NCBI RefSeq assembly: GCF_016937515.1
Contig: NZ_JAFHKM010000002.1
Coordinates: forward strand, 3,095,001 to 3,159,000
Direction of reading: 5' to 3'
DNA: 64,000 nucleotides
DNA from: Cohnella algarum
GTDB taxonomy: Bacteria > Bacillota > Bacilli > Paenibacillales > Paenibacillaceae
Part shown: in pieces, positions 1-20,404 of the stretch
Layout: every line of letters begins with the position of its first letter
Position numbering within the stretch: position 1 is the stretch's first letter
Notes under the pieces: generated by a model
What the model was told of the DNA's origin: nothing
Databases searched by the model: none
The model's input: the letters and a program-made list of their open reading frames with translations, nothing else
Made by a program: the position numbers and the translations under genes

Positions 1-2484
1 TCCAAAGAACATGCCGGCGAGATGAAGAAGCTCTTTCCCGATTGGCAGATGAGCGTCCTTTTTCCATTTCTTCAGGAATGGCGAGAATATATGTATCCGA
101 AGCTGATCCGCTTCGTGCGGCCTGTACTTGATTATTACAAGACACGCCGGTATGCCGCGGGAAAACTGAATTTCCAGGACTTGCTCATGGAAGCTGCCAG
201 GCTTGTACGTGAAAATAGTGAAGTAAGAGCGTATTTCGCCGAACGATACCAGAGGCTGCTTGTCGATGAATTTCAGGATACGGATCCGATTCAAGCGGAG
301 CTGGTGTTTCTGCTCACAGGGAACGCTGAGGGTGGGGGGTTCGAGAAAAACTGGCGGCGGCTTACACCACGGCCGGGTTCCTTGTTCGTGGTCGGGGATC
401 CGAAACAGTCCATCTATCGTTTCCGCAGGGCAGATATTTCAATCTATAACGAGGTCAAGGCGCGCATTCAGGAGTGCGGTGCGGTTTGTTGTCTAACAGC
501 TAATTTCCGTTCTGTATATTCCATCGGCGATTACATAAATGGTCAGTTTGTCGGCAAATTTCCGTCTTCGGAAACGGAGGTCCAGGCTGCGTTCGTGAAG
601 ATGGAGACCCGAGCAGACGATCCCAAAGGCGCTCGTAAACCGCCACATGGGATATACGTGCTTAATTATCCCAAAGTGCCGGGAGGCAAAGCTGCCGTTG
701 CGCAAACAGATGCCGAGCAGATTGCAAGATATATATCGTGGGCATGTCATAATGGCAATTTGCAGATTGTAGATCGTGATGGAGGAAACCGAAATGCGGT
801 TCCGAGTGATTTTCTAATTCTGACGAAAACGAGGGAGTTCATCCACCTGTATGCGGAACAACTCGACTTGTTCGGAGTTCCGGCTGATACTTCAGGCAGT
901 ACGACGGTCTATGAGGAACTGCTGGCCTTATACCAACTGGCTCGTTATTTAGAGGATTCCGCTGATAAACCGGCTTTGCTCGCGGTTATGCGCGGCATGT
1001 TGTTTGGCCTGAGCGATCGGCAGCTGTGGGCTTATAAGCAGGAAGGTTTATCGTTCTCGTTATTTGACTTGCCGTCGTTGGAGGCTTGTTCTGATGAAGT
1101 CAAGGCAGTTGTTACGGTGCTGGGAAAGCTTCAGCAATATAAGGGGTGGGTTCGCACGTTAAGCGCGGCGACCGCGTTCAGCCGAATCGTGGATGATCTC
1201 GGTATTCTGCCCTACGTGTCGACGCTGCCGGCCGGCTCTGTTCGCGCGGGGACGCTGGTGAGAATGCTGCAGCTGTTGCATGGAGATCCTGCGGCGAGTT
1301 CAAGCTGGTCGGAATTGTGCCGATTGATCGAGCACATGCTCGCGGATCGAGGGATGGAGACATCGAGCCTGTACGCCGGCGGCAACCAAGCTGTCCGGAT
1401 TATGAATCTGCATAAAGCCAAGGGACTTGAAGCACCCGTCGTGTTCTTGGCCTGTCCCTGCGGGGAGTCGGATCATGATGCGACGCAGTATATCGATCGT
1501 TCCGCAGATCCGGCTGCAGGTTACTTTACGATAAGTAAATCAATCGGAGAGTTCAAAACGGAAGTGATCGCTCAACCCTTAGGATGGGGTGAGATGAACG
1601 AACGAGAGCGTGCTTTCTCAAATGCAGAGAAAGATCGGTTACTTTATGTCGCGGCTACACGCCCGAAGCAAATGCTCGTTATAAGCTTGTATCCCGATCA
1701 ACCGGCGAAGTGCCCTTGGACACCGCTCGTAGATGGGATGGATCTCGCACGCGAACTTGATGTGCCGGCGATGAAGCCAGAGAAGAAGACGGAGTTGACC
1801 GAGGGGCCGGATTTGCAAAAGGTCGCGGAAGCTCGAAGGATGAGGCTGAATGCGATTCGTGAGCCTACTTACGCCGTCTTGTCCGTTACCGGCCGGACGA
1901 AAGCAGCCGGCGATAGGCCGGAGTGGTCCGCGGAGGGCAAAGGTATGGCATTCGGGAGCGTCGTTCACCGTACCCTAGAGCTGCTTGGTAAGGGGTTACC
2001 GGAGTTGGAGATTGAGGATACGATACGCTTCTTAGCGGATGAGGAAGGCATGGCTGAGGATTTCATAAGCGAAGCCGCTCGAGTTGTACGAAGTGTAATC
2101 GCCAGCGAACTCTGGCAGCGCAGCCTGCGCGCTCGCCGCCGCTTATTCGAGGTGCCGCTGATGTTTCGAAAGAATGCCGATGAATTCAGCGTACCTAGCG
2201 ATGTTGGGAGTACAGCCTCAGAGGTTGCGGCCACATCGGAAGGCACAGGTTCAATTCAGTATGCCTATGTTCGTGGAGTCATTGATTTCCTCTTCGAGGA
2301 AGAGGATGGCTGGGTGATTGTTGATTTCAAGACAGACAGCGCAACAGAAGAGAAGTTACAGTCATTCCTTGATTTCTACCGGCCGCAGGTTCAGGCTTAT
2401 GCGTCGGAGTGGGGAGCGACTTTTGGTTATAAGGTGAAAGAAGCGGGGTTGTATTTTGTTCAGTTGGGAAAATGGCTTTCGTGA
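1..2484 (+). CDS. AddA/RecB-like UvrD helicase-nuclease, C-terminal part (5' cut by window)
   Basis: The reading frame is open to the first base, so the N-terminus including helicase motif I lies upstream. Visible are the Walker B motif LLVDEFQDTDP (near residue 82 counted from the Met at position 22), motif III VVGDPKQSIYRFR, and a late motif with LHKAKGLEAPVVFLA and LLYVAATRPK. A C-terminal PD-(D/E)XK nuclease carries GVIDFLF, VIVDFKTD and YRPQVQAYA. This order is that of AddA/RecB-type superfamily 1 helicase-nucleases, which unwind and degrade double-stranded DNA ends. It is followed after about 100 bp by the SNF2 helicase on the same strand. An AddB-like partner might lie upstream, outside the window. 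Family assignment is confident; whether it is housekeeping AddA or an accessory defence paralogue is inferred from context. Confidence 0.85.
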   Translation, partial: SKEHAGEMKKLFPDWQMSVLFPFLQEWREYMYPKLIRFVRPVLDYYKTRRYAAGKLNFQDLLMEAARLVRENSEVRAYFAERYQRLLVDEFQDTDPIQAELVFLLTGNAEGGGFEKNWRRLTPRPGSLFVVGDPKQSIYRFRRADISIYNEVKARIQECGAVCCLTANFRSVYSIGDYINGQFVGKFPSSETEVQAAFVKMETRADDPKGARKPPHGIYVLNYPKVPGGKAAVAQTDAEQIARYISWACHNGNLQIVDRDGGNRNAVPSDFLILTKTREFIHLYAEQLDLFGVPADTSGSTTVYEELLALYQLARYLEDSADKPALLAVMRGMLFGLSDRQLWAYKQEGLSFSLFDLPSLEACSDEVKAVVTVLGKLQQYKGWVRTLSAATAFSRIVDDLGILPYVSTLPAGSVRAGTLVRMLQLLHGDPAASSSWSELCRLIEHMLADRGMETSSLYAGGNQAVRIMNLHKAKGLEAPVVFLACPCGESDHDATQYIDRSADPAAGYFTISKSIGEFKTEVIAQPLGWGEMNERERAFSNAEKDRLLYVAATRPKQMLVISLYPDQPAKCPWTPLVDGMDLARELDVPAMKPEKKTELTEGPDLQKVAEARRMRLNAIREPTYAVLSVTGRTKAAGDRPEWSAEGKGMAFGSVVHRTLELLGKGLPELEIEDTIRFLADEEGMAEDFISEAARVVRSVIASELWQRSLRARRRLFEVPLMFRKNADEFSVPSDVGSTASEVAATSEGTGSIQYAYVRGVIDFLFEEEDGWVIVDFKTDSATEEKLQSFLDFYRPQVQAYASEWGATFGYKVKEAGLYFVQLGKWLS

Positions 2485-2589
2485 TGAAGTAACGTAGTAT
2501 TTGGGTATTTAGAACTAGTTTAACAGGAATCTTAGGAAGTGGTGTCGAATATGAATATTACTTAGTCTCGGTAAAACTAGAGGTGGAGA

Positions 2590-5500
2590 ATGGAAATTCT
2601 GAATAACATCGACCGTCTACTCGGCGATGACCTTAAAAAATCGATCCGAAAAGGTTCGCGGCTGTCGATCGCAGCATCCTGCTTTTCGATCTACGCCTAT
2701 GAAGCATTAATGAAAGAGCTGAATCAGGTGGAAGAAGTGCGGTTTATCTTCACTTCGCCTACCTTTATTGCGGATAGCATCAAGAAAGAGAAGCGGGAGT
2801 TCTACATCCCGAAGTTGACCCGTGAGAAAAGCCTGTACGGTTCCGAGTTTGAAATCCGGCTCAAAAATGAAATGAACCTCAAAGCGATTGCGAAAGAATG
2901 CAGCGACTGGATTCGGAAGAAAGTCACCTTCAAGTCGAATCGGACTTCAGGTGCAATGCAAGGGATGTTGAATTTGCAGACATCCGATGAAGCCATCACA
3001 TACATGCCAGTCGATGGCTTTACGACGGTCGATCTTGGATACGAGAAAGGCAACGCTTTATCCAAGATGGTGAACAAATTCAATGAGGTTCCTTTTACCA
3101 AAATGTATTTTGATTTGTTCAATCAAGTCTGGAACGACAAGAACAAACTCGAAGATGTGACCAATCAGGTGGCCGAGCACATTTCATCCGTTTATAAAGA
3201 GAACTCGCCGGAGTTCATCTACTACGTTATTCTCTACAATATCTTCAACGAGTTCTTGTCAGATATTACGGAAGACATACTGCCGAACGAAGCAACTGGC
3301 TTCAAAGAAACGGAAATCTGGAAGCGGCTCTATCACTTTCAGAAAGATGCGGTGCTCGGTGCGATTAACAAGCTTGAGAAATACAATGGCTGCATCCTTG
3401 CAGACAGCGTCGGCCTTGGGAAAACATTCACCGCTCTTGGCATTATCAAGTATTACGAGCTTCGCAACAAGTCTGTCTTGTTGCTATGTCCGAAAAAGCT
3501 TGGTGATAACTGGCTCACATACAAACAGAACGTGACCAACAACATCTTGTACGCCGACCGTCTGCGATACGATGTACTCTACCATACGGACATTTCTCGT
3601 GAGAGAGGAAAGTCCAATGACATTCCACTCGACAGATTGAACTGGGGCAACTATGATTTGCTCGTCATCGACGAATCGCATAACTTCCGCAATAACGAAG
3701 CGAAGAAAGATAAAGAGACACGATATCAGAAGCTGATGCGGAAAGTGCTAAAGAGCGGCGTCAAGACGAAGGTACTGATGCTGTCGGCAACTCCGGTGAA
3801 TAACAAGTTCATGGATCTCCGTAATCAGCTTGCTCTTGCGTATGAGGGAAATCCTGAAGAGATCAACAACAAGTTGGGCACGGAACGGGGCATCAACGAC
3901 ATCTTCAAACGGGCTCAGTCTGCCTTCAATCAGTGGTCAAAGCTAGATGCCGCTGAACGGACAACAGAGACGCTGCTAGGTATGCTTGACTTTGATTTCT
4001 TTGAGCTGTTGGATAGTTTGACCATCGCTCGCTCCCGCAAGCACATTCAGAAGTATTACAAAGCTGAGGAGATCGGCGAATTTCCTAAGCGATTGCCGCC
4101 ATTATCCAAGTTCTGCAATCTGACAGACAGGACGGATGTCATCGGCTATAATGATATTTTTATGGAGTTGTCCAGAATCAACCTCGGCATTTATGCTCCG
4201 TTCAAGTACATTCAACCGAGTCGCTTGCGACTGTATGAAGAAATGTATGATACGAGTGTAAAAGGCGGAAGCGGGAGCTTCAAACAATTGGACCGGGAAG
4301 GCAGCTTGCAGCTCCTGATGCGGATCAATTTGCTTAAACGGTTGGAGAGCTCCGTAGAATCCTTCCGGTTGACGCTGTCCAAGATTATTTCCAAGCTCGG
4401 TCAGACATTGGAGAGAATTGAGGCTTATCAGCGAAGCGGAAAATCAGATGCGGTTGGATACACGGAGATTGAAGATGCCAGTCTCGATGATGACGATTGG
4501 TTAGATGATGACTTTACCATCGGGGATACCATCAAGATCAATCTATCCGATATGGACGTGCTTCGATGGAAAGAAGACTTGATGAGTGATCACCAAATTC
4601 TATCTGCTCTTCACGAAGAGATGCAGAAAGTAACGCCCGAGCGAGACGAAAAGCTGAATGCCTTGAAACAAGTCATCGATGATAAAATCAGACAGCCAAT
4701 CAATCCGGGCAATCGTAAAGTGATCATCTTTAGTGCATTCACGGATACCGCGGCGTATTTGTACAACCATCTATCTGCATACATGAAGTCGAAATACAAC
4801 ATCGATACTGCCAAAATTGTTGGCAGCGATGAGAACAAAAACACCGCCGGACTTCGGAACGACATCAGTACATTGCTCACCTGCTTCTCGCCGCGATCTA
4901 AGGAGAAGAAGTTGACGATGCCGGATGTGGATGGCGAGATCGATCTGCTCATTGCGTCCGATTGCATCTCCGAGGGGCAAAACTTGCAGGATTGCGATTT
5001 TCTCATCAATTATGATATTCACTGGAATCCGGTACGAATCATCCAGCGGTTTGGACGAGTTGATCGGATCGGCTCCCAAAACAAATCCATTCAGCTCGTG
5101 AACTTCTGGCCCAACATGACGCTGGACGAATACATTCAATTGAAAGAACGGGTCGAGAATCGCATGGTTATCATGGATATGACGGCAACTGGCGACGACA
5201 ATGTTCTGTTTAATCAGTCCAGCGATTTAGAATACCGGAAGCAGCAGCTTAATCGCTTGCAGAAAGAAGTCGTCGATCTGGACGAAATGAACACCGGAGT
5301 ATCCATAACGGATTTAGGTCTTAATGATTTCCGCATGGATTTGGTGAACTACGTCAAAGAGAATGGCGAACTGGATACCGTTCCTAGCGGACTGCATGCT
5401 GTTGTTTCTGCTGATGAAGATAATGGAGTACAGCCAGGCGTCATATTCGTTCTTCGCAATGTAAATGAAGAACTGAACCCGGACAAGCAGAATCGCTTGC

Positions 5501-5844
5501 ATCCTTTCTACCTGGTCTACCTGAGTGACGATGGTGAAGTCATCACCAATCATATGGATGTCAAGAAGACACTCGATGTTTTGCGTGCCCTGTGCAGAGG
5601 ACAATCTGAACCTGTCCTGGAGGCATGTCGCAGCTTCAATCAAGCGACGAAAGACGGCAGGAAGATGGATGCTTACTCCATGCTGTTGGAGGAAGCGATC
5701 CGCTCTATTGTACAGGTGAAGGAAGAAGGCGATCTGGATAGCTTGTTCAGTTCGGGAGGCACAACGGCTTTAATCGATTCCGTCAAAGGTCTTGAGGATT
5801 TTGAACTCATTACCTTTGTTGTCATCCGGCAGGTGAGTGCATGA
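2590..5844 (+). CDS. SNF2-type helicase with N-terminal PLD-like region
   Basis: A 1084-residue protein behind a good ribosome-binding site (GAGGTGGAG). Superfamily 2 motifs are plain: motif I DSVGLGKTFTALG (about residue 270), motif II VIDESHNFRN (about 360), motif III MLSATPVNN (about 398), and motifs V/VI ASDCISEGQNLQ and RIIQRFGRVDRIGS (about 790-825). The first 250 residues resemble the phospholipase-D-like region seen in helicases of this kind next to restriction systems, but I see no clear HxK catalytic pair, so it may be inactive or a different fold. The stop overlaps the next gene by 4 bp, implying translational coupling. The likely role is DNA translocation or recognition in a defence complex with the following DUF4391, Mod and Res proteins; that role is inferred. 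Confidence 0.88.
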   Translation: MEILNNIDRLLGDDLKKSIRKGSRLSIAASCFSIYAYEALMKELNQVEEVRFIFTSPTFIADSIKKEKREFYIPKLTREKSLYGSEFEIRLKNEMNLKAIAKECSDWIRKKVTFKSNRTSGAMQGMLNLQTSDEAITYMPVDGFTTVDLGYEKGNALSKMVNKFNEVPFTKMYFDLFNQVWNDKNKLEDVTNQVAEHISSVYKENSPEFIYYVILYNIFNEFLSDITEDILPNEATGFKETEIWKRLYHFQKDAVLGAINKLEKYNGCILADSVGLGKTFTALGIIKYYELRNKSVLLLCPKKLGDNWLTYKQNVTNNILYADRLRYDVLYHTDISRERGKSNDIPLDRLNWGNYDLLVIDESHNFRNNEAKKDKETRYQKLMRKVLKSGVKTKVLMLSATPVNNKFMDLRNQLALAYEGNPEEINNKLGTERGINDIFKRAQSAFNQWSKLDAAERTTETLLGMLDFDFFELLDSLTIARSRKHIQKYYKAEEIGEFPKRLPPLSKFCNLTDRTDVIGYNDIFMELSRINLGIYAPFKYIQPSRLRLYEEMYDTSVKGGSGSFKQLDREGSLQLLMRINLLKRLESSVESFRLTLSKIISKLGQTLERIEAYQRSGKSDAVGYTEIEDASLDDDDWLDDDFTIGDTIKINLSDMDVLRWKEDLMSDHQILSALHEEMQKVTPERDEKLNALKQVIDDKIRQPINPGNRKVIIFSAFTDTAAYLYNHLSAYMKSKYNIDTAKIVGSDENKNTAGLRNDISTLLTCFSPRSKEKKLTMPDVDGEIDLLIASDCISEGQNLQDCDFLINYDIHWNPVRIIQRFGRVDRIGSQNKSIQLVNFWPNMTLDEYIQLKERVENRMVIMDMTATGDDNVLFNQSSDLEYRKQQLNRLQKEVVDLDEMNTGVSITDLGLNDFRMDLVNYVKENGELDTVPSGLHAVVSADEDNGVQPGVIFVLRNVNEELNPDKQNRLHPFYLVYLSDDGEVITNHMDVKKTLDVLRALCRGQSEPVLEACRSFNQATKDGRKMDAYSMLLEEAIRSIVQVKEEGDLDSLFSSGGTTALIDSVKGLEDFELITFVVIRQVSA

Positions 5845-6497
5845 TGTTCAAGCTACCATCAAGCACACTTGTAAATCGCAAAATACCGAAAAATAAGTTT
5901 TATGAGAAGCTTCACGCCAATCAACATCTAAAGGAACTGTTTACCGAGCAAGTCGAGTCGATTATTTGGAAGCACAAACTATCCAAAGAGACGATTCGCC
6001 TCGAACCGAAAGATGACATTGAGGAAGTTCAGGTGTTTGAGGTTCACTTGAAAGAGCGAACCTATTCACTTGATCTGCTACGTAGCATCGACAAGGCGAT
6101 TCCTTACCCCATACTGCACGTCATTATATACGAAGATCAGGCAAAGCTCGCAATCGCCTACAAGGAGCGGAATCAGACCGATGATAACCGCTCCGTTGTA
6201 CGTTCTTATCACGAATCGGAATGGCAGCCTGTAGAAGAATTGAAGCTGGACATCATTCAAGGACTTGATTTAAAGGCCGTATACGAGAACATCATCCGTC
6301 AACTGTTGTCGATTAACTCGAAGCCGGAAATGGAGCTTACAGCCGTACTGGAGCGGCAAGCAAGCATAGACAAGCTGACGCAAGAATGCCAGCGGCTGGA
6401 GTCGAAGATTCGCGGAGAAAAGCAGTTCAATCGCAAGGTCGAATTGAACATGGAATTGCAACGTAAACGTAAACAATTGAATCAACTACTTGACTAA
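5841..6497 (+). CDS. DUF4391-like protein, partner of the SNF2 helicase
   Basis: A 218-residue protein whose start overlaps the helicase stop (ATGA). The first 150 residues contain the pattern I associate with DUF4391: VNRKIPKNKFYEK near the start and HVIIYEDQAKLAIAYK in the middle. The last 45 residues (after QASIDKLTQE) are charged and heptad-like, probably a coiled coil. Proteins of this type sit between SNF2-PLD helicases and type III methyltransferases in many bacteria; their biochemical function is not known to me. Mod begins 23 bp downstream with its own ribosome-binding site (CTGGAGG), so the genes form one operon. Confidence 0.7.
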   Translation: MMFKLPSSTLVNRKIPKNKFYEKLHANQHLKELFTEQVESIIWKHKLSKETIRLEPKDDIEEVQVFEVHLKERTYSLDLLRSIDKAIPYPILHVIIYEDQAKLAIAYKERNQTDDNRSVVRSYHESEWQPVEELKLDIIQGLDLKAVYENIIRQLLSINSKPEMELTAVLERQASIDKLTQECQRLESKIRGEKQFNRKVELNMELQRKRKQLNQLLD

Positions 6498-6520
6498 GTA
6501 ACTGGAGGTCTAACCAAAAC

Positions 6521-8404
6521 ATGAACCATCTGACGATGAAATCAACTGATCTGACTCAGGTCAATATCGACAAGATAGCGGAATTGTTTCCTAACGTAAT
6601 TACAGAAGCAAGAGATGAACAAGGAAAGATTAAACGTGCGATTGATTTTGATTTGTTGAAGCAAGAGCTTTCCGATTACCTTGTTGAAGGGGAAAAAGAG
6701 CGGTATCAATTGACTTGGCCCGGGAAAAAAGAAGCTATCCTTCAAGCCAATGCTACAATTGATAAAACACTACGACCAGTCAAAGAAAACAGCGTAAACT
6801 GGGAGTATACGCAGAATCTTTACATTGAGGGTGACAACCTTGAAGTTCTGAAATTACTTCAAGAATCTTACTTGAATAAAATCAAATTGATTTATATTGA
6901 TCCACCATATAATACAGGAAAAGATTTTATTTATAGGGATGACTTTAAATCATCATTAGATGAATATGCAGAAGAATCTGGCCAGGTAGATGATCATGGA
7001 AATCGTCTTTATCAAAATACAGAAGCTAATGGTCGATTTCACAGCGACTGGCTAACTATGATGTATTCTCGATTGAGAACTGCAAAGAATTTATTAAGAG
7101 AAGATGGATTGATCTTTATTAGCATTGATGATAATGAGGTAGATAACCTTAAGAAAATATGTGACGATTGTTTTAGTCGCACTAACTTTATTGGAACATT
7201 TGCTTGGAGACGAAGTATTTCGTCCAATGATGCACAAAAACATTTTAGTAATGACCACGAGTATATATTGGTTTATGGCAAATCTTCAAGTTCACAACTA
7301 CTTGGATTAGCAAAAAGTGATGCAGATTATACAAACCCAGATAATGATCATAGAGGTCCTTGGAAAAAAAGTGTCTTAGTTTGTAGTAAAACAAAAGACG
7401 AAAGGCCGAATCTTTATTATCCAATAACTGATCCAGCTACCGGAATTACTTACGAATGTAATCCCAATCTTGTATGGGCTTATGAAAAGAATACAATGAA
7501 AAGACTAATTGAAGAAGGGAGAATTATCTTCCCTAAGAACGGACAAGGGAAACCTGCTCTAAAATTATTTTGGAATGATCTGAGATCACATCGAAAGCCG
7601 GTTTCATCATTTATTGATAAGCAAGAGGGATTCGAGTTCCAATTAAATTCAGCGGGAACAAAAGAAATAAATAATATATTTGAAGGCAAAGTGTTCACGT
7701 ATCCAAAGCCTTCAGAAAACATCAAACAATTAATAAACGTGGCCACAGAAAACGATGATATTATCCTAGACTTTTTCTCCGGCTCTGCCTCAACAGCACA
7801 CGCTGTTATGCAATTGAATGCTGAAGACGGGGGTAAGAGAAGGTTTGTTATGGTGCAAGTACCGGAAGCTACAGAGGAAAGTTCAGAAGCCTATAGAGCA
7901 GGATTCACAACGATTTGTGAAATTGGCAAAGAACGCATCCGCCGTGCTGCCAAAAAGATCAAAGAAGAAACAGGAGCAGACATCGATTACGGCTTCCGTG
8001 TGTACCGAGTAGACTCAAGCAACATGAAAGATGTCTATTACACGCCGGACAAGCTAGGCCAGATGAATCTGGATGATGTGGCGTCGAACATCAAAGAAGA
8101 CCGTACTGGCGAGGACTTACTCATCCAAGTGATGCTGGAGTGCGGACTGGAGCTCTCATTGCCAATGGAATCCAGAGTAATTGATGGGAAAACCGTACAT
8201 TACGTTGCTGGCAACTCTTTGATTGCTTGCTTTGATGATGAGGTAACAGAGTCGGTTATCAAGAAGATCGCAGAGGATCAACCACTTCGCGTTGTATTCC
8301 GTGACAGCTCTTTCCGGGATGATTCCGGTATTTGTCAAGATAGTTGTCGCGATTTCTTAGGGAAAGTAAACGTTAAGATAGCGATTTTTTTGCAGCTTGA
8401 ATAA
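6521..8404 (+). CDS. mod: Type III DNA methyltransferase (Mod), 3' end replaced by IS sequence
   Basis: An N6-adenine (beta-class) methyltransferase: the catalytic motif DPPYNTG lies near residue 127 and the SAM motif FFSGSASTAHAVMQL near residue 420, the order typical of type III Mod. The protein should methylate one strand of an asymmetric site and supply specificity to Res (10090-13143). It reads normally up to FRDDS at about 8325, where an IS3-like element starts. The last 25 or so residues, ending FLQLE, are encoded by the IS. The lost native tail is still readable at 10003-10074 (DSARINVEELFK...). The middle of the gene (about 6800-7900) is much richer in A/T than both ends. Activity of this copy is doubtful. 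Confidence 0.9.
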   Translation: MNHLTMKSTDLTQVNIDKIAELFPNVITEARDEQGKIKRAIDFDLLKQELSDYLVEGEKERYQLTWPGKKEAILQANATIDKTLRPVKENSVNWEYTQNLYIEGDNLEVLKLLQESYLNKIKLIYIDPPYNTGKDFIYRDDFKSSLDEYAEESGQVDDHGNRLYQNTEANGRFHSDWLTMMYSRLRTAKNLLREDGLIFISIDDNEVDNLKKICDDCFSRTNFIGTFAWRRSISSNDAQKHFSNDHEYILVYGKSSSSQLLGLAKSDADYTNPDNDHRGPWKKSVLVCSKTKDERPNLYYPITDPATGITYECNPNLVWAYEKNTMKRLIEEGRIIFPKNGQGKPALKLFWNDLRSHRKPVSSFIDKQEGFEFQLNSAGTKEINNIFEGKVFTYPKPSENIKQLINVATENDDIILDFFSGSASTAHAVMQLNAEDGGKRRFVMVQVPEATEESSEAYRAGFTTICEIGKERIRRAAKKIKEETGADIDYGFRVYRVDSSNMKDVYYTPDKLGQMNLDDVASNIKEDRTGEDLLIQVMLECGLELSLPMESRVIDGKTVHYVAGNSLIACFDDEVTESVIKKIAEDQPLRVVFRDSSFRDDSGICQDSCRDFLGKVNVKIAIFLQLE

Positions 8405-9985: not shown

Positions 9986-10002
9986 CTATTCTGACAGAGG
10001 GG

Positions 10003-10074: not shown

Positions 10075-10089
10075 GGAAGGTGAGCAGCG

Positions 10090-13000: not shown

Positions 13001-13143
13001 CTCTGGACTCCATGGAGCTGCGTGAAGTTGAGAAGGCTAAGATTGAATGTGCACGAAGGCATTTTGCTAAGCTGAATTCGGATCAACTGAAGTACGATGT
13101 GGTTAACAGCTATGAGAAGTTGATGGAGATAGTGCGAGGATAA
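10090..13143 (+). CDS. res: Type III restriction endonuclease subunit (Res)
   Basis: A 1017-residue DEAD/DEAH-type translocase-nuclease. Motif I is VEMETGTGKTYTYIRT (about residue 98), motif II IIDEPQSVEG (about 227), motif III YSATHRED (about 254), the late region ALKEGWDNPNVFQI, and motif VI KKRQEVGRGLRL (about 554). The C-terminal PD-(D/E)XK nuclease is visible as VGDYNPDWAIVF and YFIAETKGS (about residues 943-968). With Mod it forms the complex that cleaves DNA carrying two inversely oriented unmethylated sites. The start follows GGAAGGTGAG. The gene appears full length, but its partner Mod is truncated by the upstream IS, and transcription from the operon start may also be reduced. Confidence 0.92.
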   Translation: MKIKFKHQQFQLDAVKSIVDVFQGQPNESSRFTLDKGRRQKSVEIGDLFQQTSGIDSEYGFKNNPIKLVDQEVLSNIQAMQRQNGLKLSERLEGKYNLTVEMETGTGKTYTYIRTMFELYKKYGWSKFIIVVPSIAIREGVLKTFQITEDHFMAEYGSKARYFVYNSKQLHHIEKFASDAGINVMIINAQAFNAKGKDARRITMELDDFQSRRPIDVIASTNPILIIDEPQSVEGQKTKEALKDFKALFTLRYSATHREDYNKVYRLDALDAYNMKLVKKISVKGISVKGSSGTNSYVYLEGIDVSNKHAPIARLEYEKRTKTGLTKVSKKIVAGDDLYQLSENLEQYKGYKVSEINGQNNSISFINGVTLFAGDVQGDVSELHFRRIQIRETLKSHFEKERVLFHKGIKVLSLFFIDEVSKYRQYDKEGNERNGDYADIFEEEYMELLNEQLSLFADDPYVQYLNMIRVKDTHKGYFSIDKKSNRFVDSKVSARETDSDDADAYDLIMRQKEQLLSFEEPTRFIFSHSALKEGWDNPNVFQICTLKHSDSTIKKRQEVGRGLRLCVNKYGERIDSSIPGIDVHEINALTVVASESYEQFAKQLQGEIAATLSDRPRKADNSFFLEKVLVNARGEQLKIDERLANKLQNAFIRNGYTDDDYNLTDVYFAAVEEQTIKLPDELNAYQEQLIELVKTIYVEGKSDMTNDDRKNTVPNITVNSNFHKKEFKELWSRINKRSVYTVQFDSEELVRKSIMVIDMSLDVPSIRYSIKHGEMNEIESREQLKQGEAFVIRETDADYIHQAAASKIKYDLIGKLMDETKLTRKTIVAIMKGIKQAKFMLFQKNPEEFILRASRLINEQKATTIIESITYDVINDTFDTDVFTKNTLKGQLGQNAIAVEKHIYDYVVTDSKIERAFAKELDTSNEVHIYAKLPRGFYIPTPVGDYNPDWAIVFKEGDVKHIYFIAETKGSLDSMELREVEKAKIECARRHFAKLNSDQLKYDVVNSYEKLMEIVRG

Positions 13144-13676
13144 CACAAGTGGACAGCAGTTAAAGGGAGATGTTTTCATTGCAAACAGTAGAGCTGACTG
13201 AGGGAATTCAAAGGTTGGGCATAGACTTCCAAATGCGATTACCGCAGGGGCTATCCGGACAAGAAGGCAGAACGGGTATGTAACCATAAATGAACATGGA
13301 CGACTGGCCGGACAACTCATCCCAGCCAACCGGCGGCGTTGCCTACCAGTTGTCCGATTCCATGGTGTGTAGAGTGCGAATGAACGGACGATCTCTCCGC
13401 AGGCTCTAAGGAAAGCGACGATGAATGGAGCGAAATGCACTGAGCAAGTAGACACTTTGTTTACGGAACCAATGCCGCCATCGTCAGTTTCGAGTCGTCC
13501 ACGGCAACGGTAAATCACCGGGAGACTTGGAGAATGCTTCCGGTATGTCTGTTCCCGCAGACGAACGGACAAGGGGGGCATCCTTTTCCTTTTCTGAGAT
13601 ACGGTCATTAGACAGCAACTTCCGGACAGGCAATCCCGTCAGCAATTGGACCTTATCTTTAATTAGTAACACTTAC
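13144..13676 (+). other. Non-coding stretch of about 530 bp, possible RNA gene or decayed gene
   Basis: No convincing gene fills this interval. A short TTG-started frame of 33 codons begins near 13180 behind AAAGGGAGA and could be a relic. Sequence features are repeated GGACAA-type words (near 13257, 13308, 13567 and 13621) and an inverted pair GGACAACT (about 13309) / AGTTGTCC (about 13347) able to form a hairpin. A strong intrinsic terminator follows. A structured RNA is possible; I did not recognise a known family. Confidence 0.4.
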
Positions 13677-13717
13677 CCAAACAAAGCGGTTATTTATGGC
13701 TTTGTTTGGTTTTTTTA
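13677..13717 (+). terminator. Intrinsic terminator after the res block
   Basis: A perfect 11-bp stem CCAAACAAAGC / GCTTTGTTTGG (13677-13687 and 13699-13709) with an 11-nt loop is followed by a run of T. It separates the Mod-Res operon from the next helicase gene, which therefore probably has its own promoter in the AT-rich stretch 13720-13850. Confidence 0.9.
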
Positions 13718-13860
13718 TTTATACAGGACTTAATGCCTATATTGTCGAATAAACAATACAGGGATTTTATTCCATAAGAACGTATATTCGATGACAACCT
13801 ATTGTCTAATCATTATGTTTTAATTTAATCAGCAGATATTAACGATGGAGGGGATCAGGT

Positions 13861-16545
13861 ATGGCATTTCTGAAATGCTCGGAATGCGCCAATATGCTAA
13901 AGGCAATTCAAATTTCCAATAAAATCAGCCAAGTTGGGGAGCAACGATTACTTGAATATTCGCCAACCGGGATTAAATGCTCAGACTGGACTCCCGTAAT
14001 TGAAAACCTCCGAGGATTCGCAGAAGGAATTTACTGTCCGTCTTGTTTTGCTATCGTTCCTCTAGAGAAGGAAGAATTTGTACTATGTGAGGATAACCGA
14101 ATTCCCGGCGTCGTAAGTCATGAATTTTCATCAGAAGATGTACTGGATAAGCTGAAGAAGTTGGCCGAGGAAGAGGCCGCTGAGATTTATGTACATACAC
14201 TTCCTGCCAAAGAAGCAACTTTTGCAGATATTCCTGAATCTACACCGGAGCCCATTAAGGACGCCTTGCATCGAATGGGAATTAAGCAGTTATATTCACA
14301 CCAAGCAGAAACGGCCGATGCAGTCCATTCTGGTTCTAATGTTGTCTTGGTCACTTCAACATCATCCGGAAAGACGTTGTCCTATAACCTGCCGATTCTT
14401 AGTCGTTTATATAATCATCCCGAAGAACGTGCGTTATACATATTTCCAACAAAAGCGTTAGCAAATGATCAATTGGATCAAATTAGGCGTTTTGGCTTGC
14501 AACTGACGGAGAATCCTTCTTCCCTGGATGAGTGGTTTGAGACCCAGTTGCATTTGGGAGATCGTCTGATTCATATTGGCCGGCTGGATGGAGATACCGA
14601 GAATGGGCCGCGGCAGCGTATCATAGAAAAAGCACAGGTATGGATGACGAATCCGGATATGATTCATTACTCCATTCTCGGGCAAGTTCAGAAGGTGAAG
14701 TACGCAACCGCACACCACATTCGGAATTATTTGCGGAACCTCAAATTTATCGTGCTTGATGAGATGCATATGTACCGCGGCACATTCGGAAGTCACGTCG
14801 CATTGGTACTCAGACGCTTGCTGAAGGTTTGCCGAGAACTTGGCAATAATCACAAGATCCAGATTATAACGAGTTCAGCTACGATTGAAAATCCTACCAG
14901 ATTAGCGGAGGATCTTACGGGTTTGACCGGTTTTACACTCATTAATTCAGATGGTTCCGCTCATCAGAAAAAGGGGATCGTCCTCTGGAATCCAGGGATG
15001 TCAGCCGATGAACAAGTCCGCCGCGCGCCTTCTACCGATGCCATTACGATGGCAAAACAGATCATGACTGTGGATCAGAAAGTGATTAAAAGTATCATTT
15101 TTCAGCCTTCTCGAAGCCAGACGATGGTATTTACTCGTTATATCAAAGATGTATTGCGTCAGCCTCTTCGACTATCTAAAGAGAAAGTGGAAGGAGAAAA
15201 ACTTGCGGCATTTTATACCGGAATTCTACCGAACGATACCCGAAAAAGGATTATTGAGCGGCTCAAGTCCCACGATATTCATGTCATCATTACGACCAAT
15301 GCCCTTGAAGTAGGGATTGATATCGGGGATTTGAGTCTCGCGGTTTTAGTTGGTTATCCCGGTTCGAAAGCGGCTTTCTCCCAACAGATTGGACGCGTTG
15401 GCCGCAAAGGCGAGGGTGTTGCTGTACTGATCTGGCAGGACGAACCGCTTCAGCAGTATTACATGCGTAACCCACTGGAGTTTATTCACAAGGCTCCGGA
15501 AGTCGTTCGAATTAATCCAACAAATTACAAGTTGTTGGCTTTGCATATTCCTCTACTGAGAGAAGAGCTCGGGAGAGAAGTCACGAAGGAAGACTTGCAG
15601 AACATGTTCCCCGGGTTAGTTGAAGACTATATCGAGACTGTTCTCCAGGTTGCCGCATCAGCGAATCAAGAGGAAGTCGTTGATAAAAAGTTTAGCCTTC
15701 GATCCATCTCCGGGCAAAACTACAGCGTCACCATTCGGGGGCAGGATCAAACGATAGTTGACGGTCTGGATGAATGGAGTGCTCTTCGTGACTTTCATGA
15801 AGGAGCGATCTATTGGACTCCTGGAGAAAAAGGCTATCGAGTAGACTCTATCAATCGCAGAAAAGGCGAAATCATTCTATTGCCCATTCAAGAACTAACT
15901 TATTACACCCAATCTACTTATCGTGATGCCATCGATATTGTGCAGACTTATCAGAAGCAAAATATCGAAGGAATCGATATGGCTTATGGTGAACTGGAGA
16001 TCAAGCGGAGCGTCTTCGGTTATAAAAAAGTTTACTTCGGACAGAAGCATGAATCGGAGCAGGTTCAATTGGATCATCCGTCCGTCACCCGATTTACTCC
16101 CGAAGGAATGTGGGTTACATTAACGGATTCCCAATGGGGTCACTTGAGGAATAACATCCAGGAATGGGCAGATGAAGGCAGACCCGTTGATCTGTTGGCT
16201 GAAGGCTCTCTTCACGCTGCAGGTCACGCCATGACTTCCGTTATTCCGGACCTCATTATTTGTGACGCGAATGACTTTACAGGTTTTTCGGCGAGTACAA
16301 TGACGGCTTTTGCCAGTAGACCTGTTATCGGCTTCTATGGCGAGAACGGGTCCGGCCTTGGAACCATCGAGGCGATTTACGAGAAATTCCCTCATGTACT
16401 TCGAAAAGCGCTTGAGCTTATTGAGAGCTGCCCTTGTTCCGAAGGTTGTCCTAGTTGCGTGCAGCTCCCTGGTAAAGGAAATATTGAATTGTTCAAACCT
16501 GGAGCCAAAATGCTGCTGAAGATTTTGATTGAAGGGAACGATTAA
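13861..16545 (+). CDS. MrfA/YprA-like DEAD-box helicase with DUF1998-type C-terminus, copy 1
   Basis: An 894-residue superfamily 2 helicase. N-terminal cysteine pairs (CSECAN, CPSCF) look like a zinc site. Motif I is TSTSSGKTLSYN (about residue 162), motif II VLDEMHMYRG (about 298), motif III SSATIENP (about 337), then TNALEVGIDIGD (about 480) and motif VI QQIGRVGRKGEG (about 507). The end carries CPCSEGCPSCVQ (about 855), the four-cysteine cluster of DUF1998/MrfA-type helicases. B. subtilis MrfA works in mitomycin C repair; DUF1998 helicases also occur in DISARM and Druantia defence loci. The ribosome-binding site is GGAGGGG. The next gene starts 2 bp after the stop and is a paralogue. Confidence 0.88.
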   Translation: MAFLKCSECANMLKAIQISNKISQVGEQRLLEYSPTGIKCSDWTPVIENLRGFAEGIYCPSCFAIVPLEKEEFVLCEDNRIPGVVSHEFSSEDVLDKLKKLAEEEAAEIYVHTLPAKEATFADIPESTPEPIKDALHRMGIKQLYSHQAETADAVHSGSNVVLVTSTSSGKTLSYNLPILSRLYNHPEERALYIFPTKALANDQLDQIRRFGLQLTENPSSLDEWFETQLHLGDRLIHIGRLDGDTENGPRQRIIEKAQVWMTNPDMIHYSILGQVQKVKYATAHHIRNYLRNLKFIVLDEMHMYRGTFGSHVALVLRRLLKVCRELGNNHKIQIITSSATIENPTRLAEDLTGLTGFTLINSDGSAHQKKGIVLWNPGMSADEQVRRAPSTDAITMAKQIMTVDQKVIKSIIFQPSRSQTMVFTRYIKDVLRQPLRLSKEKVEGEKLAAFYTGILPNDTRKRIIERLKSHDIHVIITTNALEVGIDIGDLSLAVLVGYPGSKAAFSQQIGRVGRKGEGVAVLIWQDEPLQQYYMRNPLEFIHKAPEVVRINPTNYKLLALHIPLLREELGREVTKEDLQNMFPGLVEDYIETVLQVAASANQEEVVDKKFSLRSISGQNYSVTIRGQDQTIVDGLDEWSALRDFHEGAIYWTPGEKGYRVDSINRRKGEIILLPIQELTYYTQSTYRDAIDIVQTYQKQNIEGIDMAYGELEIKRSVFGYKKVYFGQKHESEQVQLDHPSVTRFTPEGMWVTLTDSQWGHLRNNIQEWADEGRPVDLLAEGSLHAAGHAMTSVIPDLIICDANDFTGFSASTMTAFASRPVIGFYGENGSGLGTIEAIYEKFPHVLRKALELIESCPCSEGCPSCVQLPGKGNIELFKPGAKMLLKILIEGND

Positions 16546-16547
16546 GA

Positions 16548-19295
16548 ATGCCTGTAATCTGCTCTTCTTGTGGGGGCCAACGGCCATATGGAGACTTTGC
16601 CCAAATTGGTTATAAAGCTGATTCGAAAGGATATTACCGTTATATCCATCAACGTGCAAACGGGATTCGAATTTCGAATTGGCGCTCCCTTGAACCCGAT
16701 ATGGAGTCCTATATAAACAAACAAGCAGGCGTTTATTGTACGCATGATGGATGCTTGATCTTGGACGGGATGTTGACACCGGAAGAAATGGAAATGATCT
16801 CGGACCGAAGACTTCCCGTGCAACAAGCATTCGATAGTGATATGCTCGTCCAAAACTTGCTTGAAGTCGGAACTCGTGTCCGAAGCGAAGTGCATGTGCA
16901 TCAAATTGACGCCAATCAAGGCGCTTATGCTGACCAAATCCTTATGCCCAGTTGGCTGGAACGGAAGCTGCAATCTCTGGGGATCAATAAGCTATATGAG
17001 CATCAAGGAGAAGCTATACAGAACATCCGGGAAGGACGCAATGTCGTTCTCTGTACGAAAACCGCCTCGGGAAAATCATTGGCTTACAATGCTCCCATCA
17101 TGGAGAAATTGGTATCTGATCCGGATGCGTGTGCGCTATATTTGGCTCCGTTCAAAGCATTGGTCGAAGATCAGTTTACCCACTTGAAAGAATGGGCCGA
17201 TGATATAGAAGAGCAGGGAAATAAAATTTCGATTAATGGATTTTCGCGATTCACTGTGAACGGACAAAAAATATCTGCTGGACTTCTTCATGGGCAACGG
17301 AATGTTCCAGAGCATATGAGAAAAGATCAGGCGTCTAGCTTCGTGTTCTCTGAGGGACGTTATTGGCTAACCAATGTTCACTACCTGCACTTAATTCTTC
17401 AGGGTGCAGGTTCACCTAAGGGGAAAGGCCCTGGGCTGTTGCGCTTTCTGCAAAATCTTCGATTTGTCGTTATTGATGAGCTTCATCAATACTCAGGCTT
17501 GTTAGGTTCAAAGGTTTCTTTGGTCCTACGCAGATTAAGAATGTTATGTGACAGGTTGGGGAATAAAAACGTCCAGTTTATTGCCTGCTCGGCTACCATT
17601 GCTAATCCAAAGTATCTGGCTGAAGAATTGACAGGAATGCGTGGAATGAAAGGATTTCATGAAATATCGGGTGTACAAGCGCCAGTAAAGAAGAAAGCGA
17701 TTTTGATGTGGAATCCTGGCATATCAGACGATGAGCAAAAGAAAAGGGCTGTTGTTTCCGATTTCTATGAGATTCTGCGTACGATCTACAAGGATGGAAG
17801 ATGGCCAAGAAGTATCATTTTCACAAGCAACCGCCAACAGGCTCAGCTTTTAAGTCGTGAATTAAACATGATATTGCGCAGCCACCTTCATGATCATGGC
17901 GGGCTTTCGCCAGACGAACCGAATGAGTTTTTTCTGCCGTACCATGCATACCTCACGCAAGAAGTTAAAGATCGAACCGTACAAAAACTTGAGCAAGGCG
18001 AGATCCTTGGAGTAGTCACAACCAGCGCGCTAGAGGTTGGAATTGATGTGAAGTGTCTGGATGTATGCATTCTGCTAGGATATCCAGGTTCTCAGGCATC
18101 CTTCTGGCAGCAGGCTGGCCGTGTGGGGCGCACTAGAGAAGGTGTGGTCATCATGATGGTTCAGGAAGAGCCATTGCAGCAATATTTCGCCCGCAACCCT
18201 GAAGAATTCTTTAAGCTCCCGCCCGAATCAGCAACGATTAATACAACGAATCCAAAGTTGTTGAAGGAACATCTTGCATATGCGGCTCATGAGCAGGGTG
18301 GAATGGTCATCAATGCTATGAATTATGTTCGCTCTTCGGCGCTTCGCAAGGTAGTCGCAGAAGCAAGCGAACAGTGGCAGCAACTCGAAGGGAAACTCCT
18401 TTATCGTGGTGAAACGCCAAGATATCAAACTTTATTTACAATGGGAGCTACTTATACGGTTGTAACCAAGAACGGCTGGAATGAGGACATCTTGTTTCAA
18501 AGTGTCGAAGAGCGTTCCTTAATAAGAGATTATCACGTAGACGCCGTATTTCTGGGGCCTGACAATCGTACCTTCTATAAGGTCAAGTGGGTCAATAACA
18601 GGCAACGCAAAGTGGTTGTAGAGCCGGTAAGAACGGATTATCATACTCGCGGAATTGTTCGCGATAGCATTGAAATCCATGACATAACCAATCCACTGAG
18701 AAGTGACGCGGCGATCAGATCCAATCTTGGAAACATCATCGTAAAACGAAGCACATTTGGATACAAAAAAATTTATAATCACGGTGCAACGCTTCCCGAA
18801 ACCATACAATTAACCAACACATATCCTGTCAGCTTCCAAACAGAGGCGTTCTGGCTGATGTGGGATCACCAAGGAAGGGATGAACTTAGAGGTCTGCTCA
18901 AGGATGTGGATAATCACGAATCTGCTGACTTGGAGACCTTGGTTGAGGGAAGCCTTCATGCAGCTGAACATGCAATAGCTTCGGCGATCCCGGCCGTTGT
19001 AAGGTGCAGTATGGCTGATTTTCAGCACACCTCTTTTTATTCTGGCTCTGCTTTGTTCGGAATGCCCGGGATGTTCTTTTACGACAGTCAAGCAGGAGGC
19101 GGTTCGGGTATTGTCGAGGTCGTCGCTGAAAAATTCGGAGTTCTCTTGGAGAAAGCGCAACAGATCATTAGCAGCTGTGGATGTTCAGACGGCTGTCCAT
19201 CATGCATTCAGTTATTTCATTGCGAAAAACAGAACGAGCCGCTGCATAAGGCTGGGTCTTTGCTGGTAATCAACCATTTACGAAAATCCCGATAG
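16548..19295 (+). CDS. MrfA/YprA-like DEAD-box helicase with DUF1998-type C-terminus, copy 2
   Basis: A 915-residue paralogue of the preceding gene with the same plan. It has an N-terminal cysteine pair (CSSCGGQ), motif I TKTASGKSLAYN (about residue 170), motif II VIDELHQYSG (about 308), motif III CSATIANP, then TTSALEVGIDVKC, motif VI QQAGRVGRTREG (about 521) and the C-terminal cysteine cluster CGCSDGCPSCIQ (about 877). Tandem placement with a 2-bp gap suggests equal-ratio expression and perhaps a hetero-oligomer. The sequences have diverged well beyond a recent duplication, so the two copies probably have distinct roles. Confidence 0.88.
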   Translation: MPVICSSCGGQRPYGDFAQIGYKADSKGYYRYIHQRANGIRISNWRSLEPDMESYINKQAGVYCTHDGCLILDGMLTPEEMEMISDRRLPVQQAFDSDMLVQNLLEVGTRVRSEVHVHQIDANQGAYADQILMPSWLERKLQSLGINKLYEHQGEAIQNIREGRNVVLCTKTASGKSLAYNAPIMEKLVSDPDACALYLAPFKALVEDQFTHLKEWADDIEEQGNKISINGFSRFTVNGQKISAGLLHGQRNVPEHMRKDQASSFVFSEGRYWLTNVHYLHLILQGAGSPKGKGPGLLRFLQNLRFVVIDELHQYSGLLGSKVSLVLRRLRMLCDRLGNKNVQFIACSATIANPKYLAEELTGMRGMKGFHEISGVQAPVKKKAILMWNPGISDDEQKKRAVVSDFYEILRTIYKDGRWPRSIIFTSNRQQAQLLSRELNMILRSHLHDHGGLSPDEPNEFFLPYHAYLTQEVKDRTVQKLEQGEILGVVTTSALEVGIDVKCLDVCILLGYPGSQASFWQQAGRVGRTREGVVIMMVQEEPLQQYFARNPEEFFKLPPESATINTTNPKLLKEHLAYAAHEQGGMVINAMNYVRSSALRKVVAEASEQWQQLEGKLLYRGETPRYQTLFTMGATYTVVTKNGWNEDILFQSVEERSLIRDYHVDAVFLGPDNRTFYKVKWVNNRQRKVVVEPVRTDYHTRGIVRDSIEIHDITNPLRSDAAIRSNLGNIIVKRSTFGYKKIYNHGATLPETIQLTNTYPVSFQTEAFWLMWDHQGRDELRGLLKDVDNHESADLETLVEGSLHAAEHAIASAIPAVVRCSMADFQHTSFYSGSALFGMPGMFFYDSQAGGGSGIVEVVAEKFGVLLEKAQQIISSCGCSDGCPSCIQLFHCEKQNEPLHKAGSLLVINHLRKSR

Positions 19296-19297
19296 TA

Positions 19298-19459: not shown

Positions 19460-19483
19460 TCAATATTTAGGGAGAGAACGTAA

Positions 19484-20404
19484 ATGGCCGAAATTACAAA
19501 TGAGGACTTAAGATTATGGAATATCCCTTCAACTCGGACCAAGGAAGTATGGAAAAGATGGGCAGAATTTGCTCTCACATTTGATGGTTACGACTACTTC
19601 AAAGGTGACGCTGACGAATTAGTCAACCTGCATGCTATGGTGGCCGAATACTGTAATACCAATAAGCGCCTTCCTAGCGAACTCAATCTTTCAGAGTTGC
19701 GAGCATGTTTGTTTGCTATGCAAAGAATGTGGCGGCATTCCGGAGAATGGGGTCTGGCCCCTAAGGACAAGGCATTCATAAAAAAGTTAATCGATGCTAT
19801 CAGAGATCATGTAAAGGAAAATGAAGCACAGTTACCGTCCCTTGTCGACCAAGCGATCGAGTATGCCGCCTACGCGCACCAAGGTCAGAGGCGTAAAGGC
19901 ACCAATATCCCTTATATTAGTCACCCTTATGCTGTAGGAATGATTTTGCAGAAGGCAGGGTGTGCAGAGGAGGTCGTCGCTGCCGGGATTTTACACGACA
20001 CACTTGAAGATACCGAAACTACGGAAAAAGACTTGCTTGAGCGGTTCGGGCCGGTTGTGCTTGAAATGGTCAAGGGCTGCTCGGAACCGGACAAGGGGGC
20101 GTCTTGGGAAGAGAGAAAGCAGCATACGCTCGATGAACTTAAACACGCTTCATTACCGATTCGGCAGGTGTCTTGCGCAGATAAGCTGCATAATATACGT
20201 TCAATCCAGAGGGATTTGAAGGTACACGGGGAGGACGCTTGGAATAGGTTTAAACGCGGACGGGAGAGTCAGGAGTGGTATTACCGAGGTTTGGTAGAAA
20301 GCCTAGGCTATGCTTCTCGCTTTAAATTATTAGACGACCTTCAAGACGCAGTCGAAGAAGTATTCGGTCCGATATTGTTAAACGCAGAATGGAAGAAGCT
20401 GTGA
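19484..20404 (+). CDS. SpoT/MESH1-like HD phosphohydrolase with unknown N-terminal domain
   Basis: A 306-residue protein. Residues about 118-270 are an HD domain of the RelA/SpoT hydrolase type: RRKGTNIPYISHPYAVG, the HD motif ILHDTLEDTETT (about 169), and SCADKLHNIRS. Such domains hydrolyse (p)ppGpp or related nucleotides with a metal ion. No synthetase domain is present. The first 110 residues (tryptophan-rich, RLWNIPSTRTKEVWKRWAEF) are unfamiliar to me. The start follows GGGAGAG. As last gene of the helicase block on the same strand it may act as a nucleotide-signalling or nucleotide-clearing effector; that is inferred. Confidence 0.82.
   Translation: MAEITNEDLRLWNIPSTRTKEVWKRWAEFALTFDGYDYFKGDADELVNLHAMVAEYCNTNKRLPSELNLSELRACLFAMQRMWRHSGEWGLAPKDKAFIKKLIDAIRDHVKENEAQLPSLVDQAIEYAAYAHQGQRRKGTNIPYISHPYAVGMILQKAGCAEEVVAAGILHDTLEDTETTEKDLLERFGPVVLEMVKGCSEPDKGASWEERKQHTLDELKHASLPIRQVSCADKLHNIRSIQRDLKVHGEDAWNRFKRGRESQEWYYRGLVESLGYASRFKLLDDLQDAVEEVFGPILLNAEWKKL

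Follow-up and report, generated by a model that had tools for sequence, protein, structure and literature searches.

A 64,000-nucleotide stretch of the 6.2 Mb Cohnella algarum genome (positions 3095001–3159000 on its contig 2; hereafter the window) opens with eight plus-strand genes, among them several helicases, a helicase-nuclease and a type III restriction pair, which a preliminary description had put forward as a candidate single defence system. Open reading frames (ORFs), Pfam and PADLOC place all eight genes where that description had them, and comparison with related loci leads us to a different view of how they belong together: the gene set is neither one fixed system nor a product of chance, and consists of a conserved frame with an exchangeable slot, in which a WYL regulator gene and a divergent AddAB pair are followed by a self-marking restriction system of one of several kinds and often by a pair of YprA-type helicase genes. 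The block starts outside the window, where the WYL regulator gene and then AddB (965 amino acids, aa) lie upstream of AddA (12142–13092 and 13296–16193, respectively, of the fetched stretch L009; below, L numbers denote such stretches and G numbers genomes). Within the window the features are as follows.

1–2484, plus strand: AddA-like helicase-nuclease, 3′ part (Pfam UvrD-helicase, UvrD_C, PDDEXK_1; full ORF 1162 aa).
2511–13134, plus strand: type III cassette (blastn, copy A versus copies B and C of the same genome).
2590–5844, plus strand: SNF2-type helicase, 1084 aa (SNF2-rel_dom, Helicase_C; PADLOC C3a139 HKD+Snf2, 426 bits).
5841–6497, plus strand: DUF4391 protein, 218 aa (PF14335, 204.6 bits).
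6521–8404, plus strand: type III Mod (PADLOC MTase_III, 772 bits; N6_N4_Mtase; true homology to ~8325).
8326–10002 (ends approximate), minus strand: IS3-family insertion (ORFs 8373–9437 and 9434–9985; IS3 transposase NCBIfam).
10090–13143, plus strand: type III Res, 1017 aa (PADLOC REase_III, 1080 bits; RE_endonuc, ResIII).
13222–13660, no strand assigned: remnant of a dispersed transposon-like repeat (two pieces, 74% and 84% identical to five other genomic copies).
13676–13716, plus strand: terminator-like hairpin with T-run (found by eye; absent from the output of a simple consensus scan).
13725–19267, plus strand: YprA-YprA cassette (blastn; boundaries recur in loci with different modules).
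13861–16545, plus strand: YprA/MrfA-type helicase 1, 894 aa (DEAD, Helicase_C, MZB).
16548–19295, plus strand: YprA/MrfA-type helicase 2, 915 aa (DEAD, Helicase_C, MZB).
19484–20404, plus strand: HD_4 protein, 306 aa, a loosely attached accessory gene (HD_4, 79.5 bits).

Some details of the earlier picture need amending. The 717-bp gap at 13144–13860 is there as reported and holds the repeat remnant, the terminator-like hairpin and a 136-bp leader of the helicase cassette; in L009, one copy of its repeat has a serine recombinase ORF on one side and an rve transposase ORF on the other. The insertion sequence (IS), which had been taken to lie between genes, interrupts Mod near its 3′ end: the match to uninterrupted Mod copies elsewhere in the genome breaks off at ~8325 and picks up again at ~10003, so that ~21 Mod residues have been exchanged for IS-encoded ones, and 97% identical versions of the IS ORFs are found elsewhere in the genome. 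The HD protein, labeled SpoT-like, gives Pfam matches to HD/HD_4 only, with no RelA/SpoT synthetase domain. Likewise, the HxK(x)4D motif is absent from all 1084 residues of the SNF2 protein that had been called PLD-like, so that its PADLOC HKD+Snf2 match reflects a fold-level resemblance at most and an active HKD nuclease is rejected. As a side observation, a large serine recombinase gene (L009 5014–6873) ends ~6 kb upstream of AddB, and similar recombinases (cluster c26) occur in five other fetched stretches, which hints at a possible mobility of these loci as elements.

The type III cassette, SNF2-DUF4391-Mod-Res, is present three times in the genome: as copy A in the window, copy B at 3933 kb and copy C at 2160 kb, with the SNF2 genes of the latter two at C2:3933442 and C2:2159634. 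Identities of the copy A proteins to those of B and C are 92% for SNF2, 84–85% for DUF4391, 78–79% for Res and 62–63% for Mod, and the DNA homology extends from window position 2511, 27 bp past the AddA stop codon, to the 3′ end of Res (~13133–13134). Mod and Res, which are adjacent in B and C, have the IS3-family element between them in the window copy, where it cuts the Mod 3′ end; B and C are uninterrupted. Neither AddAB nor YprA is found in the fetched flanks of copies B and C, and no other gene of the block lies nearby. Judged by these copies, the cassette is a self-contained unit, and the suggestion that these four genes form a separate system was right. Within Mod, the first 200 columns of the alignment of A and B are 80–84% identical and the middle region 21–51%; a diverged middle behind a preserved N-terminal part is the usual sign of different recognition domains, which the three copies would accordingly carry.

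The solved chain nearest to Res is that of EcoP15I (4zcf_C, E = 1.2e-72), and the cassette shares with EcoP15I-like type III restriction-modification systems a Mod with an N6_N4_Mtase domain and a Res with ResIII and RE_endonuc domains, but differs from them in the SNF2 and DUF4391 genes that stand ahead of Mod in the uninterrupted cassettes seen here. The AlphaFold2 (AF2) model of DUF4391 (pLDDT 87.9) has a mixed alpha/beta part and a long helical hairpin, and a Foldseek comparison with the PDB returned no match at E ≤ 0.001. This form of type III system ranges from Paenibacillus relatives to proteobacterial plasmids; in the three plasmid loci opened among 68 matched records, the helicase-DUF4391-Mod-Res order is kept in all three, and plasmids of Methylotuvimicrobium and Acinetobacter carry it, although in the latter an IS1-like element separates Mod from Res. 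Two variants of the cassette deserve mention. On a Citrobacter plasmid (L302 4773–18090), a WYL gene precedes the helicase and two extra genes, annotated as ATP-dependent endonuclease and DUF2130, stand between DUF4391 and Mod. Copies B and C have three further upstream genes in common that the window copy does not have (L010 6267–9076 and L012 6459–9268), encoding a zinc-ribbon ankyrin protein of 267 aa and two proteins, of 477 aa and 176 aa, that match nothing in Pfam; together with the cassette they possibly make up an extended stand-alone form.

The AddAB genes upstream of the cassette are not the only ones in the genome. A presumed housekeeping AddB is encoded elsewhere by an open frame of 1252 aa at 4275216, which makes the pair in the block an additional, divergent one. 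The part of AddA in the window scores at best 169 bits against the NCBIfam addA/recB/rexB equivalog models, where the cut-off is 696, and AddB scores 20.2 bits against a cut-off of 718, as expected for divergent relatives rather than housekeeping orthologs. The catalytic motifs have been kept through this deep divergence: a Walker A motif and a C-terminal PD-(D/E)XK nuclease motif (DfKtD..Qv..Y) are conserved in 52 aligned AddA proteins, and the residues D815..D829-Y-K-T..Q851..Y855 as well as C674, C926, C929 and C935 are invariant in 18 AddB sequences. We take these four cysteines to be ligands of an Fe-S cluster. No Walker A motif is visible in the AddB consensus. The AddB and AddA reading frames have an 8-nt overlap in 38 of 55 loci, and the WYL gene stands before AddB except in four loci, in which it follows AddA. 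The pair thus has what defines AddAB/RexAB (compare B. subtilis AddA, 3u44), a helicase-nuclease AddA and an AddB with a nuclease motif and four invariant cysteines, but differs in being a second genome copy, WYL-linked and placed beside a restriction slot. WYL genes of the BrxR type also accompany diverse restriction and BREX loci (PMC9122601, as far as its text was available); here, in contrast, the WYL gene adjoins AddAB instead of the restriction genes directly, and neither AddA nor UvrD appears in the available text of that paper.

Loci were collected from 394 genomes of the family by AddB alone (E ≤ 1e-60), which leaves the slot contents unselected. AddB-like genes were found in 43 of the 394 genomes, at 47 loci, of which 46 were fetched and annotated (G034 was left out): 36 are WYL-linked, the WYL genes all belonging to one family (31 with a module, 4 with something else and 1 at a contig end), and 10 have no WYL gene. 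The modules comprise the type III set with SNF2 and DUF4391 in six loci (G000A, the window, and G076, G128, G143, G286, G308), BREX1 in seven (G095, G004, G162, G015, G103, G044, G291), a BREX3-like set in two (G194, with BrxF-BrxC-PglXI-...-BrxA-SNF2 helicase, and G324), type I in seven (G068, G019, G117, G372, G356, G367 and, in the genome of the window, a second, decayed locus), type I-like sets with weaker support in four (G306, G351, G332, G385), a DUF499-DUF1156 methyltransferase-PLD helicase set in four (G119, G323, G343, G289) and SspF-SspG-SspC in one (G305), called Ssp-like on these three matches. Among WYL-linked loci with no recognized module, G225 has a REase/PDC-S02-like protein, G362 has MzaC- and PDC-M33A-like proteins, G373 has pPIWI genes on the other strand and in G365 nothing was recognized. 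None of the slot modules occurs in the ten family loci without WYL, two of which (G391, G363) carry MADS-like proteins. Ten WYL-linked loci from named genomes, with one from another family, were added, six with modules and four without, together with two loci without WYL. In all, 37 of the 45 resolved loci with WYL have a self-marking restriction system, as against 0 of 12 without it (Fisher 1.8e-7), or 2 of 12 if the MADS-like proteins are counted as modules (Fisher 4.8e-5). Traced by AddB, the same gene order is repeated across 10 GTDB genera of the family and in a second family, and in 20 of 37 loci the module starts at the first gene of at least 100 aa after AddA, a figure for which the genes of 151–174 aa in BREX3-like loci were taken to be BrxF.

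It should be noted that the module labels come from BLAST against reference proteins compiled here, with PADLOC checks on selected proteins, and that the counts therefore miss module kinds outside this set. HsdM/HsdS matches are weak (20–26% identity) in the type I-like sets of G306, G332 and G385, and HsdR is PADLOC-confirmed only in G351; BrxF and BrxA of the BREX3-like sets are PADLOC-confirmed in G194 only, and the BREX3-like modules also contain a protein of 626–632 aa. The WYL gene of G385 was visible only in L205, a longer stretch from a contig of equal length, and for some loci scored as lacking WYL only ~4 kb upstream of AddB was covered, so that a WYL gene farther away would be missed. 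Annotation of added loci took in L182–L227 (46 of 80), the other 34 having matched only part of AddB; the distant AddB loci L209–L213, L216–L221 and L223–L227, two loci at contig ends (G221, L197) and G034 stand outside the counts.

Around the frame lie loosely attached accessory genes (HD, McrBC-like, pPIWI-RE, HIRAN, VWA, Fic), of which two turn up beside it repeatedly, mostly on the same strand: pPIWI-RE as islands of three genes and McrBC-like genes in pairs (L149 13298–19912 and others). Between BREX1 and the YprA pair, G095, G162, G015 and G291 have a reverse transcriptase gene (451–486 aa, for example L131:10776–12131; RVT_1 in G095), which may be a defence reverse transcriptase traveling with this BREX. 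The decayed second copy of the frame in the window's genome (L030–L031, G000 C2 ~52–74 kb, minus strand) holds a WYL gene, broken AddB and AddA, a type I set HsdM-HsdS-HsdR-PDC-S06 and helicase genes interrupted by insertions.

The right flank of the slot is formed by the helicase pair. YprA1, at 74% identity or more, was found in 11 of 197 family genomes, all 11 of which have an AddB-like gene (hypergeometric 5e-13), and YprA2 is next to it in 11 of 11. This search used strict E-value limits, and the 33–35% identical proteins of G036, G047, G058 and G143 were set aside as ordinary MrfA-like helicases; the YprA1 of G117, counted as full length, covers 827 of 894 residues before its contig stops, and in G019, G117 and G128 the AddB and YprA genes are on separate contigs. 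Among 398 genomes of the class, YprA1 appears in one further genome, G630, again with AddAB and with a BREX3-like module. The pair is not obligatory, being present in 11 of the 20 WYL-linked loci for which at least 30 kb was fetched from AddB on, some of which were fetched because the pair was known there. The first base of the cassette is the same whether the module of the locus is type III, type I, BREX1 or BREX3-like, and the same terminator-like hairpin precedes it in the window, G019b, G630, G356a and G068; with its own leader and this hairpin, the cassette is probably transcribed separately. The HD gene, which had been grouped with the helicases as a helicase-helicase-HD unit, does not share this constancy: the pair stands, but the shared cassette ends before HD in most comparisons, and, with relatives in 22 of 197 genomes among varied neighbors, the HD protein was rejected as a core part.

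Helicase 1 has the DEAD, Helicase_C and MZB domains of MrfA/YprA proteins, and B. subtilis YprA (6znp_A, E = 3.9e-97) is its nearest solved chain; the adjacent genes are the second YprA and HD, and no MrfB exonuclease gene adjoins it. PADLOC matches of the block proteins to the DruE, DrmA and DrmD models are of modest score and cover helicase cores only, and neither Pfam nor PADLOC gave a match to DrmB, DruA–D or PglX among them, so that membership in DISARM, Druantia or ARMADA, which would call for their own YprA partner genes (DrmB/DrmC, DruABCD/DruH, ArmA/ArmB/ArmD), is rejected. With DISARM, Druantia, ARMADA, BRIGADE and TALON (PMC12458937, available portions), the locus has in common YprA/MZB helicases beside methyltransferase-based systems; here, by contrast, there are two short YprA proteins close to MrfA, in a cassette of their own and with no fixed methyltransferase partner, and WYL-AddAB-[slot]-YprA-YprA matches no operon described in those portions.

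The distribution of modules over an AddB tree (55 proteins, built by a quick method, with SH-aLRT support only) points to frequent exchange. Type III arises in 6 changes for 6 rows, BREX1 in 7 for 7, BREX3-like in 6 for 6, DUF1156 in 4 for 4 and type I in 7 for 8, and the module types alone require 22 changes. Nearly the same AddB is followed by type III in G308 and by the Ssp-like set in G305, and by type I in G019 and BREX1 in G291. At the DNA level, the WYL-AddB-AddA region of G291 is 89–97% identical to those of G019, G117, G356a and G068 (type I) and of G630 (BREX3-like, from the other family), until homology stops at G291 position 10137 or 10148, 17 or 6 bp ahead of the AddA stop codon, and unrelated modules come next; beyond these, the YprA-YprA DNA is again 93–97% identical. 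Homology on the right starts at G291 position 25892 in five comparisons (G000A, G019b, G630, G356a, G068), whereas the G117b match begins inside the cassette at a contig end and that of the diverged G103 (70% identity) at 25945; it stops at 31433–31436 in six comparisons and extends further in G162, G117b and G630. The cassette start in the window (13725) corresponds to exactly this base, with 90% DNA identity over 5543 bp, despite a window AddB only ~38% identical to those of the G291 group. The order is thus constant while AddAB, module and YprA cassette are each exchangeable as a block of their own, and homologous recombination within the common flanks is the probable route by which modules have been swapped. 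A recombination site common to the module borders was also considered and is not shown by the sequences: compared by eye, the left borders have no repeat present in them all, and at the right border a single recurrent base leads into a shared leader.

How, then, do the eight genes belong together? That they all are one new fixed system, as their single strand and small gaps might suggest, is highly improbable, and as a fixed gene set the idea is refuted: two of the three type III cassettes stand alone, AddAB, YprA and HD each occur without type III genes, and among the annotated loci all eight are found on one contig only here. The preliminary description had held that rarity of the AddA- and MrfA-like genes beside Mod-Res would mark the block as a chance adjacency. 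They are indeed rarely beside it, AddAB adjoining the type III set in 6 of the 45 resolved WYL-linked loci, and YprA1 and type III sharing a contig in 1 of 11 genomes, namely this one (in G128 they are on two contigs that could adjoin). Chance does not follow from this, because other self-marking systems fill the slot in the remaining module loci and YprA1 is confined to AddAB genomes; the association is real, and is with the class of system and not with Mod-Res itself. Defence islands do mix systems, and the accessory genes here vary, but given the hypergeometric and Fisher values above and an order repeated across genera and families, chance adjacency in a generic island is less probable still than a fixed system.

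A more serious competitor is an immigration control region, in which the AddAB and YprA flanks would serve as homology arms for the swapping of restriction systems and have no functional tie to them. Sibley and Raleigh (2004) are said to have treated such regions. Different restriction systems do occupy one site between the same flanks here, and replacement of one type by another at a single chromosomal slot has precedent in E. coli/Salmonella (PMC12707154) and Listeria monocytogenes (PMC10059834), according to the accessible parts of both papers. The sharp boundaries at gene ends would be expected on this account. So would several observations that also weigh against a functional coupling of AddAB to the slot. 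In 17 of 37 loci at least one other gene, sometimes WYL, lies between AddA and the module, and modules also occur without adjacent AddAB (8 of 12 SNF2 loci first examined, 8 of 14 PglZ genomes). Modules bear promoter-like and terminator-like signals of their own: type I modules have a TATAAT-like box just past AddA, and 8 of the 31 module loci scanned have a terminator-like hairpin no more than 260 nt past AddA, which, with the hairpin before the helicase cassette, makes one transcript unlikely. The type III Res proteins found beside AddAB group in a single clade that has only one stand-alone member (G068), a pattern that would fit co-adaptation and equally fits exchange among loci with common flanks. 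To the same side of the balance belong the 8 of 45 WYL-linked loci in which no self-marking module was recognized, the AddA or AddB genes split over frames in 4 of 37 loci (G000B2, L185, L208, G372) by decay or sequencing error, the damage done to the window's Mod by the IS, and the fact that the Fisher and hypergeometric figures treat loci of related genomes as independent. Finally, all nine labels together require 30 changes on the AddB tree, compared with a mean of 38.1 after shuffling (0 of 200 as low), and are hence not fully random, with clustering most evident for the loci without WYL (7 changes, mean 10.3) and present to some degree in the weaker type I-like group.

Homology arms do not by themselves explain why, of all defence systems, it is recognized self-marking ones that occupy the slot at 37 of 45 loci, why the order is kept even where AddB is only ~38% identical, or why modules are lacking at AddAB loci without WYL (0 of 12, or 2 with MADS-like proteins). 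Known immigration control regions have boundary genes on either side, within one species or among the enterics. Here the flanking genes are a WYL gene, a helicase-nuclease pair and, in many cases, two helicases, the arrangement spans several genera, and BREX1, BREX3-like, DUF499/DUF1156 and Ssp-like sets are also found in the slot. We regard pure immigration control as a distinctly possible but lesser explanation, and favor as the probable one a modular locus with a WYL-AddB-AddA core, an exchangeable self-marking slot and a coupling of AddAB to the slot's occupant. This preference draws on the recurrent order, the slot contents, the module swaps between near-identical flanks, the sharp borders and the conserved catalytic motifs, each of them established at the level of sequence.

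In such a modular locus, the slot module would provide recognition, with Mod or another mark protecting host DNA and Res, HsdR, BREX or another component attacking, cutting or stalling unmarked DNA. AddAB would then load on the resulting ends or damaged DNA and degrade them, by analogy with RecBCD/AddAB after restriction; RecBCD acts after restriction and is targeted by phage inhibitors such as Gam, as stated in the accessible part of PMC12707154. A divergent second AddAB may escape phage inhibitors of the housekeeping enzyme, and the WYL protein may control AddAB expression. In the type III cassette, SNF2 is a probable translocase effector and DUF4391 a probable adaptor. More tentatively, WYL-AddAB could be a general executioner, that is, a constant, phage-inhibitor-resistant nuclease with a swappable recognition half, the YprA pair being a second interchangeable processing part.

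As far as the literature searched goes, the WYL-AddAB and YprA flanks, the breadth of modules (including BREX and Ssp-like), their occurrence in several genera and the type III form of four genes are new. No description of an AddAB-restriction slot was found in a search that included the available text of PMC10853773, was light on subscription papers and counts as weak evidence; the name DUF4391 turned up in a single paper of the literature searched, with subscription papers mostly outside its scope. The main text of PMC12839542, in the part available, contains none of RecB, UvrD, YprA, pPIWI and McrBC and neither AddA nor DUF4391 as a whole word.

SNF2-DUF4391-Mod-Res points to a type III restriction system of four genes with a wide distribution. 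For the frame as a whole, the prediction is that very different restriction systems use one downstream helicase-nuclease, and near-identical AddAB and YprA flanks around type I, BREX1 and BREX3-like modules (G019, G291 and G630) offer natural swaps. They make testable the long-standing question of what destroys foreign DNA after recognition by BREX and other modification-based systems. If WYL-AddAB does act as a general executioner, with type I, type III with SNF2 and DUF4391, BREX1, BREX3-like, DUF1156-type and Ssp-like modules as its recognition halves, the recognition and the destruction of foreign DNA would be separable parts that these bacteria mix and match.

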